NCBI RefSeq assembly: GCF_000194135.1 | Contig: NC_015318.1 | Location: forward strand, 820,501 to 884,500 | Direction of reading: 5' to 3' | From: Hippea maritima DSM 10411 | GTDB lineage: Bacteria; Campylobacterota_A; Desulfurellia; Desulfurellales; Hippeaceae | Length of the DNA: 64,000 bases | Program-made: the position numbers and the translations under genes | Shown here: positions 30,256-36,282 of the stretch, one piece after another | Position numbering within the stretch: position 1 is the stretch's first letter | Layout: every line of letters begins with the position of its first letter | Notes under the pieces: generated by a model | What the model saw: only the letters and a program-made list of their open reading frames with translations | What the model was told of the DNA's origin: nothing | The model's database searches: none

Positions 30256-31635
30256 CTAAGGCTTTCCTGATCCAGTTATATACCAAAAATTGCCGCCTGA
30301 GCCACCTGGCATTCCGTTCCTATTAGCATCCAAAGAGCGTCCCCAAATATCTTTAATATGATAATCGTAGCCAATATAAACAGTACATGGCTCTTGAGTA
30401 TTACATATATTTCCTGCACTTGATCTCCACTTAATTGTTTTTGAGTTAACTCTACTAACAGAACCTCTAAGCAGGGTATCCTTGACTAAATTGTTTGCTT
30501 CTGATCTCGTAGTGTATATTTTAAGTCCGTCAACTATTGAAAACATATTGGGTGGGAGATTGAAAGATACTTGAATTTCTATATGGCCGCCACTTGATAA
30601 ATGGGTGCTAATATTAGATATCTTGAATACAGTATTAGGGGGCTTGGTATCGGCAGGTATATACTTTACAGAGTTTATAGATTTCTTACCCGGTGCAGGC
30701 TTAGTCTGCCCAGGAAAACACCTAAGTTTTTTTGTCATTTTGTTGTTATTTTCATTTGTTTCCTGAATACGATTCACAAAAGCATCAACAATAACCGTAA
30801 CTTTTTTACTTTGATACAAGGGAATTGTGCCTAAACTACCAGGTGGTGTAATTCTTAGTGTTCCATTTGGTTTGGACAATTTTTTGTTTCTGTCTATATA
30901 AGATAGCCTATATCCGTTGTTTTTAGAACCCACATAAAACTTTATTAATGCCTGTCCTGCTTTAGTGTTGTAATTAGGCAGAGAACCTGGACCATTATTC
31001 TTAATCGTTACCCAAATTCTGCAGTTTTTATCTATAGCAATATCTTTCACGGTTAAGTCAGGAAGTAATTTATATTTGACAAGTTTCGAGTTGGTTTTTG
31101 GATAAGCACCAACAGGCCCTTGTTTAAACTGAGATGTATTTTTCTTACATACGCTTTGGCGTAGAAGTTTTTTAAAGGCTATAATTTTCGAATTATAAAC
31201 AAATTCTACTAAAAAGTCTCTCGTTGTTGGGTTTGAAAAGTGAGTCAAGTTGTTTGTCATCTTATTCTCACAAACAATTTTAAGCGGTAAAGCATCCCCT
31301 GCAATTGAGTCTGGTGCAATTGTTTGCCCAGGTAATGTATGACCATTTAGATAAAGTTTTCTACCATTTTGATACATATACACCTTTATGTAAAGATAGG
31401 AACCTACAAGATTAACTGTCCCTGCATTCTTCCATTTTATATACATAACATAATTGAAAGAGCCTGTTTTGTGCTTTTGTAGCCTCAAAGAGATAATGTC
31501 AACTTTTACTATCTTGTGTATCTTTGGTGAGTTTTTATTAATATTTCCTTTAAATAATATTTTAGCACCATAAGCACTAAAATTAAACAAGACAATAACC
31601 AAAATAACAAAAATCCACCTGCTTTTTAAACGCAT
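30256..31635 (-). CDS. Secreted CARDB-domain protein
   Basis: 459 residues, exported by a clear signal peptide (WIFVILVIVLFNFSAYGA). The middle (~205-315) is a CARDB adhesion-like module: LPDLTVKDIAIDKNCRIW, VTIKNNGPGSLP and the hallmark ETNENNN. The regions before and after it are beta-rich and unassigned. The ATG at 31635 is 6 bp from AGGGAGG; an upstream GTG abuts it. Cell-surface or periplasmic binding role is likely; partner unknown. Single-gene unit. Confidence 0.75.
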   Translation of the reverse strand: MRLKSRWIFVILVIVLFNFSAYGAKILFKGNINKNSPKIHKIVKVDIISLRLQKHKTGSFNYVMYIKWKNAGTVNLVGSYLYIKVYMYQNGRKLYLNGHTLPGQTIAPDSIAGDALPLKIVCENKMTNNLTHFSNPTTRDFLVEFVYNSKIIAFKKLLRQSVCKKNTSQFKQGPVGAYPKTNSKLVKYKLLPDLTVKDIAIDKNCRIWVTIKNNGPGSLPNYNTKAGQALIKFYVGSKNNGYRLSYIDRNKKLSKPNGTLRITPPGSLGTIPLYQSKKVTVIVDAFVNRIQETNENNNKMTKKLRCFPGQTKPAPGKKSINSVKYIPADTKPPNTVFKISNISTHLSSGGHIEIQVSFNLPPNMFSIVDGLKIYTTRSEANNLVKDTLLRGSVSRVNSKTIKWRSSAGNICNTQEPCTVYIGYDYHIKDIWGRSLDANRNGMPGGSGGNFWYITGSGKP

Positions 31636-31709
31636 AAACACCTCCCTTTACAGTAAAGACATGTTAAATTGCTATACTCTAGTTTTACATAACTTTATTA
31701 ATCAGATAT

Positions 31710-31806: not shown

Positions 31807-31835
31807 TTGCAAAATATATTTTTATTTGATATAAG
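31807..31835 (+). promoter_or_regulatory. Promoter of the aromatic leader-aroF unit
   Basis: TTGCAA (31807-31812), a 17-bp spacer and TATAAG (31830-31835). Transcription would begin about 31841-31843, only 2-4 nt before the leader-peptide ATG, so the leader would be translated from a nearly leaderless mRNA; no good Shine-Dalgarno is visible. Confidence 0.55.
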
Positions 31836-31844
31836 AGACTCAAC

Positions 31845-31940
31845 ATGAAAGAAGTAAGTTTAAAAGTTAGCAAGGTTTCTTTTTATTTTATATATTTTAA
31901 CTTTAACTATTATTATTGGTTTTTTGGCGGAGGGGGATAG
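31845..31940 (+). CDS. Aromatic leader peptide (31 residues) of the aroF attenuator
   Basis: A 31-codon gene ending in TAG at 31938-31940. Residues 13-27 read FYFIYFNFNYYYWFF: six Phe, five Tyr and one Trp among 15, followed by GGGG and the stop. Such runs are the hallmark of leader peptides in transcription attenuation, where scarce charged tRNA stalls the ribosome. The stop codon lies at the base of the antiterminator stem, and DAHP synthase, the first step of aromatic biosynthesis, is the next gene. No in-frame alternative start is seen. Confidence 0.88.
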   Translation: MKEVSLKVSKVSFYFIYFNFNYYYWFFGGGG

Positions 31941-32024
31941 TCTATTTAGACGGTGCTGCAGCAAACTTTTAAGCCGTTTGGATAGGCTATCCCAAGAGGA
32001 TGGTCGATTCAAACGGCTTTTTTT
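31934..32024 (+). promoter_or_regulatory. Transcription attenuator: competing antiterminator and terminator
   Basis: Antiterminator: 31934-31953 pairs with 31974-31993 through 20 consecutive pairs (four G-U), with a 20-nt loop. Terminator: 31971-31983 pairs with 32007-32019 (13 bp, one G-U), with a small inner ATCC/GGAT hairpin and a run of seven T (32018-32024). The two share 31974-31983, so only one can form. A ribosome at the leader stop would cover the antiterminator's 5' side and favour termination; a ribosome stalled on the aromatic codons would allow read-through into aroF. Pairing was checked by hand, not by folding software. Confidence 0.85.
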
Positions 32025-32057
32025 ATTGGCCGAAAAATTTTTTATGGAGGTGATTAA

Positions 32058-33089
32058 ATGATTATTATTATGAAGCGATCGGCAACGGATGATGACATCG
32101 AAAGGGTTAACAAAAAAATTGAGAAGATGGGCTTAAAAGCGCATATTTCAAAAGGGAGCAGCAAAACTGTTATAGGAGTTATTGGAGATGTAGACAGTAA
32201 GATAAAGGAATATGACCCTGTAGCTACTCTGTCGTTGGATAAAGCCGTAGAGAGCGTTCAAAGGGTATCCAAGCCGTATAAATTAGCATCGAGGGAAAGT
32301 AGGAATGACGATACAATTATAGACGTTAAAGGTGTAAAGGTTGGTGGTGATACATTTACTCTCATTGCAGGTCCATGCTCTGTTGAAAACAGAGAACAGG
32401 TATTAACTACAGCAAGGGGCATAAAAAAATGCTCAGCACACATGTTAAGAGGAGGAGCCTTCAAGCCGAGAACGTCACCTTATAGTTTTCAAGGGTTAGG
32501 TGAGGAAGGATTAAAACTCCTAAAAGAGGCTTCCGAAGAAACTGGGCTTCCTGTAGTTACAGAGGTTATGAATCCAAAGGATTTGGATGTAGTACTTAAA
32601 TATGCAGATGTTCTTCAAATAGGAGCAAGAAACATTCAAAACTTCTCCTTACTTAAACTTGTCGGGCAAACAGATAAACCAGTACTCTTAAAAAGAGGTA
32701 TGGCAACAACGATTCAGGAATTCTTAATGAGCGCTGAGTATGTAATGAGTGAAGGTAATGCTGATGTAATGTTATGCGAAAGAGGTATAAGAACATTTGA
32801 AACAGCAACGAGGAATACCTTGGACATATCAGCCGTACCTGTACTAAAAAAGGAGACCCACCTGCCTGTTTTAATAGACCCTTCACATGCCGCAGGCAAA
32901 AGGGATTATGTCCCTGCATTATCCAGAGCTGCCATAGCTGCAGGTGCCGACGGTCTTTTGATAGAAGTTCATTACAATCCTCAAATCGCAGTATCCGATG
33001 CAGCCCAACAGCTTACAATTGAGGAATTTTGCCAGCTGGTTGATGAACTAAGGAAAATAGGGGAAGTGGTGGGTAAAATAATCCAGTAA
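32058..33089 (+). CDS. aroF: DAHP synthase (first step of the shikimate pathway)
   Basis: Condenses PEP and erythrose-4-phosphate to DAHP. 343 residues: an N-terminal ferredoxin-like regulatory domain (~1-70), as in the Thermotoga-type enzyme, then the KDO8P-synthase-like barrel with [54 protein letters not shown] and [19 protein letters not shown]. It is thus probably controlled twice: by aromatic attenuation of transcription and by feedback on the N-terminal domain (family knowledge). Confidence 0.95.
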
Positions 33090-33167: not shown

Positions 33168-34466
33168 ATGGAAAGTGTGAATGTAGGATTGTTGGGTGTT
33201 GGGACTGTTGGAAGCGGCGTTGTAAATATACTTACACACAATGCTGATATAATAAAAAAGAGGCTTGGATTTGAGCTAAACCTAAAAAAGGTATATGCAA
33301 AACATATAAAGGATGAAGTAAAACCTTTACTTGAAGGTAAGATAGCCTCAAGCTATGAGGAACTATTGGCAGAAGATATCGATATAGTGGTTGAGCTTAT
33401 TGGAGGAACGACCTTTGCAAAAGATTTTATCCTAAAGGCGATCCAAGCCAAAAAAAGCGTAGCTACAGCCAATAAAGCGCTGCTTGCAGAATACGGTTAT
33501 GAGATATTCTCAGAAGCCTTCAATAATAAAGTAGATGTGGGCTACGAAGCTGCTGTTGCCGGTGGAATCCCTATAATAAAGGCTATAAAAGAATCTTTAG
33601 CAGCTAATCATATAAAATCCATTAAAGCTATAGTAAACGGTACCTGTAATTACATCCTATCGGAGATGTTTTATAAGGAAATATCCTTTGAAAAGGCCTT
33701 AAAAGATGCCCAAGAAAAGGGTTTTGCCGAGGCAGACCCCACGTTTGACATAGAGGGTATAGATTCAGCCCATAAGATGGCCATATTAAGTTCTATCTCG
33801 TTTGGCGATAATGTAAAGGCTAAAGATGTTTATACAGAAGGTATAACCAACATAGATTTACTGGATATAAAATTCGCAGATGAGTTTGGTTATAGGATAA
33901 AACTCATTGGTATAACCAATTTAGTTGATGGAAAGATAGATGTAAGGGTGCATCCAACATTGATAAAAAAAGACGACATACTCGCAAAAACAGATGGTGA
34001 ATTCAATGCCATCAAAGTAAAGACAGATATGAACGATGAAACCATTTATATTGGTAAAGGTGCGGGAAGCCTACCAACAGCAAGTGCCGTAGTTGCAGAT
34101 GTCATGGATATAGCAAGAAACATTAAAAATAAAACGAATCTCAGGGTGCCACTTATGGCATTTCCGTTCAATTATGTAAAGAAAAGGGATATCGTAAATA
34201 TAGATGATCTGACCATGAGTTATTACTTGAGATTCACGGTAAAAGACCAGGCGGGTGTTTTATCCAAAATCTCAGGCATTCTTGGAGAATACAATATAAG
34301 CATAAAGAGCGTGGTGCAATTAGGGAAAAACGAGGAATGGGTGCCTTTGATTGTTTTTACACACAAGGCAAGAGAGAAAGATATAAAGCAGGCATTAACA
34401 ATCATAGAAAAACTCGATATTATAAAAGAAAATGTTTTATTGGTGAGAGTAGACGATGAAGAATAA
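33168..34466 (+). CDS. hom: Homoserine dehydrogenase
   Basis: Reduces aspartate semialdehyde to homoserine (Thr/Met branch). 432 residues: NAD(P) motif [11 protein letters not shown], catalytic region with [12 protein letters not shown] and [16 protein letters not shown], and a C-terminal ACT domain (~355-432; [20 protein letters not shown]) for feedback control. The ATG at 33168 is preferred over an upstream TTG because of RBS spacing and the family start. It overlaps the next gene by 11 bp. Confidence 0.95.
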
Positions 34467-36282
34467 AAAATTATGGGGCGGTAGGTTCTCCTCCTCAACC
34501 GATAGCGTTATGGAGACATTTTCCGAATCCATTAGTTTTGACAAAAGGCTTTATGAATACGATATAGCAGGCTCAATAGCCCATGCTCAGATGCTTGCCA
34601 AACAAGGCATTATAAAAGATGAGGAAGCCGATAAAATAATTGAGGGTTTACGCAAAATAAAACGCATGATAGAGGAAGGCGAATTTGAATTTAGAATAGA
34701 AGATGAAGATATACACATGAACATAGAACGCAAGCTTATAGAGATTGTTGGTAAGGTCGGAGGTAAACTACATACAGCAAGAAGCAGAAATGACCAGATA
34801 GCATTAGATATAAGGCTGTTCTTAAGAGATGCTACAATTCACATTATAGATAGACTTACAGATATACTTAAACATTTTCTAAGTCTGGCAGAGAAATATA
34901 TAGATGTTGTTATGCCCGGCTTTACACACCTGCAACATGCACAACCTGTTCTGTTTTCCCATTACATACTTGCCTATTATGAAAAATTTAAAAGAGATAG
35001 GGATAGATTTAGGGATACCTTGAAAAGGATCGATGTATTACCTTTGGGTAGTGGTGCTCTTGCAGGCACAAGTTTTCCCATAGATAGAAAATATGTGGCA
35101 GAACAGTTGGGTTTTTCAAAAATCTCAAGAAACTCTATGGATGCTGTATCTGACAGAGATTTTGCTATTGAGTTTTTATCGGATGTTGCCATATGTGCAA
35201 TGCATGCGTCGAGGTTTGCCGAAGAAATGGTTATATTCTCATCGCAAGAGTTTGACTTTATTGAGCTACCCGATGAGTTTTGCACTGGCTCAAGCATAAT
35301 GCCACAGAAGAAAAACCCGGATGCTATGGAGTTGATACGGGGTAAAACAGCAAGAACATACGGAAACCTTATTCAGATGCTAGTTTTAATGAAAGCGCTG
35401 CCTTTAACATACAACAGGGATATGCAAGAAGACAAGGAATCACTTTTTGACTCAATCGATACAATAATTGGTACATTAGATGTGTTAAGTGGGGTTATAC
35501 CCAAAATCAAGCCAAAAATAGAATCACTACAAAAAGCTCTTGATAAGGGTTTTATAACAGCAACAGATTTAGCGGACTATCTGGCAAAGAAAGGTATGCC
35601 TTTTAGGGAAGCCCACAAAGTAGTAGGCCAAATCGTTGCTTATGCAGAAAAAAACAACAAAGAGCTAAACGAGATATCAATAGAAGAGTTGAAGTCGTTT
35701 TCAGATTTAATAGAGAACGATGTTTTGGATGTGTTGCATTACAGAAAGGCTGTAAACTCAAGAACAAGCTACGGGGGAACGGCAAAAGATAATGTATTAA
35801 ATATAATCGAAGAAATTAAAAAGGAGCTTTCGATAAGACAGGATGGCAATACTGTGAAATGTCCACGTTGTGGCTATCCGGTTAAGGTTTACAAAAATCC
35901 TATACCCACCACTGACATAATAATAAAGGTTGATGATAAAATTGTTCTGATAAAGAGAAAGAATCCACCGTATGGGTGGGCAATTCCTGGTGGCTTTATA
36001 GATTACGGTGAATCAGCTGAACAGGCTGCAATCAGGGAAGCAAAAGAGGAGACGGGTTTGGATGTGGAGTTGGAGAGTGTTCTTGGGGTTTACTCAGATC
36101 CAGACAGAGACCCAAGGCAGCATACTATAACAACGGTTTTTATAGCTAAAGCAAAAGGTAGACCAAAGGCTGGGGATGATGCTGAGAGTCTTGGTCTTTT
36201 TGATAAAGATAATTTACCTGAGACAATAGCATTTGACCATAAAAAAATACTTAAGGACTTCTTTGAAAAGCATAATGTCTGA
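34456..36282 (+). CDS. argH: Argininosuccinate lyase fused to a Nudix hydrolase
   Basis: 608 residues in one uninterrupted frame. Residues ~1-462 are a full argininosuccinate lyase ([24 protein letters not shown], the signature [20 protein letters not shown]), which splits argininosuccinate to arginine and fumarate. Residues ~468-485 hold a CPRCGYPV zinc-knuckle-like start, and ~485-608 a Nudix domain with a complete box (GGFIDYGE...[10 protein letters not shown]) and the [16 protein letters not shown] segment of ADP-ribose pyrophosphatases. Stand-alone ArgH is ~460 residues, so the fusion is unusual. It overlaps hom and recJ. Confidence 0.93.

Follow-up and report, generated by a model that had tools for sequence, protein, structure and literature searches.

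A Phe/Tyr/Trp-rich leader ORF and a probable ribosome-mediated attenuator upstream of the DAHP synthase gene aroF in Hippea and other Desulfurellales

The window (the whole stretch of DNA analysed, 64,000 nucleotides) belongs to the complete genome, of 1,694,430 bp, of a heat-loving, Hippea-type bacterium (Desulfurellales), whose close relatives are Hippea and other members of the order; a plasmid search gave no match. The region considered here is intergenic, lying between a divergent gene (30256–31641, minus strand) and aroF (32058–33089), which is on the plus strand like all features described below and is followed by a homoserine dehydrogenase gene and then argH. The aroF product scores 415 bits against TIGR01361 (cut-off 268) and also matches PF18152 above cut-off, which identifies it as a type I-beta DAHP synthase, the enzyme named in the original prediction, with an N-terminal ferredoxin-like regulatory domain. 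The closest solved structure is that of the T. maritima enzyme (1rzm). The gene is preceded by a Shine-Dalgarno sequence, GGAGG, at 32046–32050. The one further PF00793 (DAHP-synthase-like) gene of the genome codes for KDO8P synthase, and a search for class II DAHP synthases across the 19 genomes of the order gave none. No second DAHP synthase gene was thus found besides aroF, which appears to provide the sole entry step of the pathway in this genome. Further downstream, the argH ORF (argininosuccinate lyase, 34456–36282) has, in the same reading frame, a Nudix domain at its C-terminus (PF00293, residues 487–602), an unusual fusion.

The ORF upstream of aroF (31845–31940, 31 codons) translates as MKEVSLKVSKVSFYFIYFNFNYYYWFFGGGG, followed by the stop codon, and carries 12 aromatic residues (six Phe, five Tyr and one Trp) within 15 positions. 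It is the only one among the 1511 small ORFs of the window to have at least 10 aromatics in 15. A promoter is predicted from consensus matches, with a –35 box, TTGCAA (31807–31812), separated by a 17 bp spacer from a –10 box, TATAAG (31830–31835), 9 nt 5' of the leader ATG. All 19 relatives have a –35-like TTG(C/A) box at comparable spacing (16–19 nt 5' of the –10 box), and the distance from the –10 box to the ATG is 9–10 nt in Hippea's family and about 5–7 nt in Desulfurella. Considering that transcription typically starts 6–8 nt past the –10 box, the position of the promoter suggests a transcription start at, or a few bases from, the leader ATG. Since the –10 box is so near the ATG, the leader mRNA is probably leaderless, or has at most a few untranslated bases at its 5' end, with no room for a Shine-Dalgarno site. 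Leaderless leader peptides are known in Streptomyces lividans (PMC8079986), and the C. glutamicum ilvB leader is described as having no ribosome-binding site in the title of a reference listed in PMC4046766.

The 5' arm of an antiterminator (31934–31953), for which folds, covariation and geometry all speak, overlaps the final codons of the leader, including its stop codon (31938–31940); the 3' arm of the antiterminator (31974–31993) is shared with a terminator. This 20-pair stem is the minimum-energy fold when the coding part is masked (z = –4.1). When the 5' arm of the antiterminator is masked, the terminator forms, with 21 pairs divided between an outer stem of 13 (31971–31983 with 32007–32019) and an inner stem of 8 (31985–31992 with 31998–32005), and a z of –5.4. 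Its T run (T7, 32018–32024), which coincides with a terminator-like site returned by a scan, is separated from the aroF ATG (32058) by 33 nt. In the masked folds, a stall at Trp25 gives the antiterminator in the emerging transcript (–33.2 kcal/mol) before the 3' arm of the terminator exists, and a ribosome placed at the stop codon gives the terminator (–31.3 kcal/mol). The complete, unmasked leader adopts the terminator fold at equilibrium, so that antitermination would depend on kinetics, as in other attenuators. Masked and stepwise folds of the window sequence show no strong local hairpin of the pause or anti-antiterminator kind in the stretch from the coding part to the arm. The original prediction had described the aromatic-rich ORF and the 20-pair antiterminator across its stop codon, which the translation and the masked fold bear out, and had proposed folding both states as a check, in which each of them forms under the matching mask. 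It had also placed the terminator and its seven T correctly but had taken the hairpin to be 13 pairs long, missing the inner stem.

Covariation was assessed on a MAFFT alignment of the region between stop codon and T run from 19 genomes, with the structure taken from the window sequence. The antiterminator is paired in 80.6% of cells, compared with 35.6–54.7% when the partner is slid by 1–3 columns, a comparison that allows for shared ancestry and in which the tested structure itself came from one of the aligned sequences. Nine of its pairs have changed on both sides, giving 29 double-change cells against a shuffled mean of 10.5, a test which overstates significance as the sequences share ancestry. 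At the base of the stem, nine pairs (columns 9–17 with 70–78) reach 95.8% pairing, with exchanges of A-U to G-C at columns 14/73 and 15/72. The score for the antiterminator as a whole is lowered by Desulfurella, whose sequences, with a shorter terminator, are in part misaligned. For the terminator, 92.8% of cells are paired and ten pairs have changed on both sides. Folded individually, all 19 sequences give both states, the antiterminator of Desulfurella being seen in the full fold, as the pre-terminator cut is too short there.

The leading edge of a ribosome lies about 12 nt past the first base of the A-site codon. With this footprint, a ribosome stalled in the window leader leaves the antiterminator arm free at five of the six Phe codons, at all five Tyr codons and at the one Trp codon, and one that has reached the stop codon overlies 18 nt of it. 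In the relatives, 14–28 nt of the arm would be covered once the stop codon is in the A site. The arm starts 0–8 nt past the last aromatic codon in 19 of 19 cases, and its distance from the stop codon varies (–1 to –15). Most of the Phe and Tyr codons in these relatives leave the arm wholly free; at least one Trp codon does so in 14 of the 19, and in the other five, if the footprint is applied strictly, a ribosome at Trp would still overlap the arm. The spacing of promoter, stall codons, stop codon and arms is kept across the relatives.

A comparison of relatives for an aromatic-rich peptide and covarying, competing stems had likewise been proposed, and all 19 Desulfurellales genomes searched (two families, six genera) have both, with Phe, Tyr and Trp in the leader. 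The leaders in the order are 23–33 codons long and contain 8 to 14 aromatics, and the T run lies 65–87 nt past the stop codon and 24–33 nt ahead of aroF. A model built from the 19 leaders locates the element 5' of aroF in all 19 genomes, and also in three genomes from another family of the class, where the leaders read MKVVCSFSHTYWYYFYFWGGSLPV and a variant, and where a purine-rich stretch resembling a ribosome-binding site stands 5' of the leader start codon. The attenuator is absent from three genomes of a third family of the class (L149–L151), in which aroF abuts the upstream ORF with no intergenic gap; judging from this arrangement, the regulation of aroF must differ there. Each of the 22 related leaders has Phe, Tyr and Trp, with Trp as a single codon in most relatives and as three codons in Desulfurella. 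These three are kept although the residues around them and the arrangement of the aromatic run differ from leader to leader, which points to selection acting on codon content and not on the peptide.

The same genomes provide built-in comparisons, with a Trp-only leader before trpE and none found before pheA. The trpE leader ends in Trp-Trp-Trp (..NNWWWGSDM) in all 15 genomes for which the upstream region was available (L087–L101), and in most of them its predicted 5' UTR is very short; an aromatic-rich ORF was found in none of the 20 upstream regions of pheA. Since trpE has this leader and pheA none that was found, the codons indicate a pooled leader for the common step and a Trp-specific one for the Trp branch. 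The two elements are alike in having a leader ORF, a very short predicted 5' UTR and a terminator; the one before trpE differs in encoding Trp only, in its tandem terminator-like hairpins and in having its own hairpin at the stop codon. The model of the aroF leader matches the trpE leader weakly in Desulfurella. In most if not all of the 15 genomes, the trpE leader is separated from trpE by two tandem terminator-like hairpins with T runs; in L100 (G000:C1:1535472-1539752) the leader ends 228 bp 5' of the trpE match, and the same is seen in L087–L101.

Beyond the order, 24 of 30 distant aroF loci, mostly from Desulfuromonadales, have an upstream ORF with at least 8 aromatics in 15, a density that 306 background blocks taken from these contigs never reach. 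A search with a codon pattern (TWYTWYTWYTGG) was uninformative, with 71 matches against 72 in the reversed control. An RPSARG-like C-terminal motif is common to the Desulfuromonadales aroF leaders (L009–L037, L041, L050). In the structures of these outgroups, which were predicted singly, locus by locus, the Desulfuromonadales antiterminator arm usually lies inside the ORF, over the codons reading RPSARG, and pairs with the 5' arm of the terminator, so the conservation of the peptide there probably reflects RNA pairing. Two NC10 aroF loci (L022, L044) have aromatic leader ORFs and terminators, and share a TCTGCCC/GGGCAGA arm pairing that resembles the one in Desulfuromonadales. In four Chloroflexi loci (L045–L048), of which three are named Dehalococcoidia, the leader is of the Tyr/Phe kind, mostly lacking Trp, and is likewise accompanied by a terminator.

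The region of the window combines a leader ORF rich in codons for the products of the pathway, an intrinsic terminator, and an exclusive antiterminator that can be masked at the stop codon. Together with the conservation in 19 of 19 genomes and the compensatory changes in both stems, this supports the attenuator originally proposed, and the region is very probably a ribosome-mediated transcription attenuator of aroF, of the trp/phe type. We infer from the arrangement that the leader is translated, that ribosomes stall on it, that transcription is terminated in vivo and that each of the three amino acids elicits a response; for Tyr and Trp, sensing is suggested by the position of their codons. 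In the proposed mechanism, a ribosome would trail the polymerase through the leader. Should charged tRNA-Phe, tRNA-Tyr or tRNA-Trp be scarce, it would stall in the aromatic run, 5' of the arm that begins at 31934. The stall would free 31934–31953 to pair with 31974–31993 before the 3' arm of the terminator exists, and aroF would be transcribed. With all three plentiful, the ribosome would reach the stop codon at 31938 and cover most of the arm, 31971–31992 would pair with 31998–32019, and transcription would end at the T run.

The codons TTT and TAT are common in AT-rich sequence, and an aromatic ORF could arise by chance beside a constitutive terminator. The probability of this is negligible, as none of about 89,000 ORFs from 40 random windows (first-order Markov, with the dinucleotide frequencies of the window) has at least 10 aromatics in 15, the ORF is kept in 19 of 19 genomes and in GC-rich Desulfuromonadales, and the upstream gene (30256–31641) is on the other strand, so that the terminator is not its own; on the random controls, the conservation and the covariation, a chance ORF with a constitutive terminator was rejected. 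Pairs of terminators and antiterminators are also found in T-boxes, riboswitches and protein-bound leaders, which would sense amino acids without translation of the ORF. At the gathering score, however, an Rfam scan of the window returned two tRNAs only, with neither a T-box nor a known leader family, and what has been conserved is the aromatic codons, along with the placing of the stop codon with respect to the arm, which makes sensing of this kind extremely unlikely. Peptide-specific arrest by a free amino acid, as opposed to codon starvation, would have a parallel in TnaC, which senses free Trp (PMC8429421), and nascent peptides rich in aromatics are capable of interacting with the exit tunnel. 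The leaders vary in length and sequence, though, with no fixed motif at a fixed distance and with only the aromatic content kept, and induction by excess would have the wrong sign for a biosynthetic gene; we consider arrest very unlikely.

The question of which amino acids count is more finely balanced. The attenuator may in practice answer to just one or two of the aromatics, chiefly Phe or Tyr, with the Trp codon incidental or serving for pacing. Such is the behaviour of the attenuator of C. glutamicum aroF, where the leader AroR (Phe-Tyr-Phe) responds to limitation for Phe and not for Tyr (PMC11802643; PMC4046766); moreover, the lone Trp codon of most relatives may add little, and in the five of 19 mentioned above it is not clear of the arm. 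Against this, Trp, an otherwise rare residue, is kept in all 22 leaders and in nearly all Desulfuromonadales aroF leaders, and two of the three Trp codons of Desulfurella leave the arm free. We take a response limited to one or two aromatics to be a serious possibility, if a somewhat doubtful one. Tentatively, and with a chance we would put not far short of even, we propose that a three-input attenuator of DAHP synthase, answering to any of Phe, Tyr and Trp, is old and widespread, built from different RNA sequences on the same layout in Desulfurellales, Desulfuromonadales and NC10, with a Phe/Tyr-dominated form in Dehalococcoidia.

The mechanism as such is not new. In C. glutamicum, whose aroR leader and aroF attenuator were reportedly described by Neshat et al. 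in 2014, an aromatic leader and attenuation are likewise found directly 5' of a DAHP synthase gene, but that leader has Phe-Tyr-Phe only and a second DAHP synthase is present, whereas the Hippea leader has all three aromatics and one gene was found. The E. coli trpL (trpEDCBA) and pheL (pheA) leaders also carry end-product codons, with a stop codon near exclusive antiterminator and terminator hairpins; each encodes a single amino acid and serves end-branch genes, while in Hippea no separate pause or anti-antiterminator hairpin is evident in the folds of the window sequence and the stop codon lies on the antiterminator arm. Pooling of several end products of a branched pathway occurs in the E. 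coli ilvGMEDA leader, and the ilvL leader of S. lividans pools Ile, Leu and Val (PMC8079986); ilv leaders are similar in this pooling, with branched-chain instead of aromatic amino acids. In Acholeplasma, the uORFC-13-1 motif 5' of aroF is a predicted uORF with Phe codon(s) and a terminator (PMC8632094), which differs from the Hippea leader in having a Phe run only, in structure and lineage, and in being predicted only. Attenuation of E. coli aroF has been hypothesised (PMC8632094), and Leu, Trp and Met leaders are reported from Epsilonproteobacteria (PMC3847290). A literature search found no aroF attenuator for Hippea, Geobacter or delta-proteobacteria, and no Phe/Tyr/Trp leader before a DAHP synthase gene; surveys of proteobacterial attenuation may hold such predictions, and those of Panina (2001) and Vitreschak (2004) may predict an aroF attenuator. 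The apparent novelty lies in a leader composed of all three aromatics, in how strictly it is conserved and in its occurrence across several phyla. The novelty suggested by the original prediction, which knew of no described case with such a composition in the group, apparently stands for the three-aromatic case and is narrower otherwise, DAHP synthase attenuation and pooled leaders being known.

A single leader that stops the ribosome for any aromatic in short supply could match the flux through what is apparently a single DAHP synthase to the demand for three end products. E. coli has three feedback-specific DAHP synthase isoenzymes, along with the repressors TyrR and TrpR. If the three-input reading is true, one translated leader would do what E. 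coli splits among those isoenzymes and repressors. With the aromatic leaders that recur before aroF in other phyla, attenuation of the entry step would also reach far past the few cases described.
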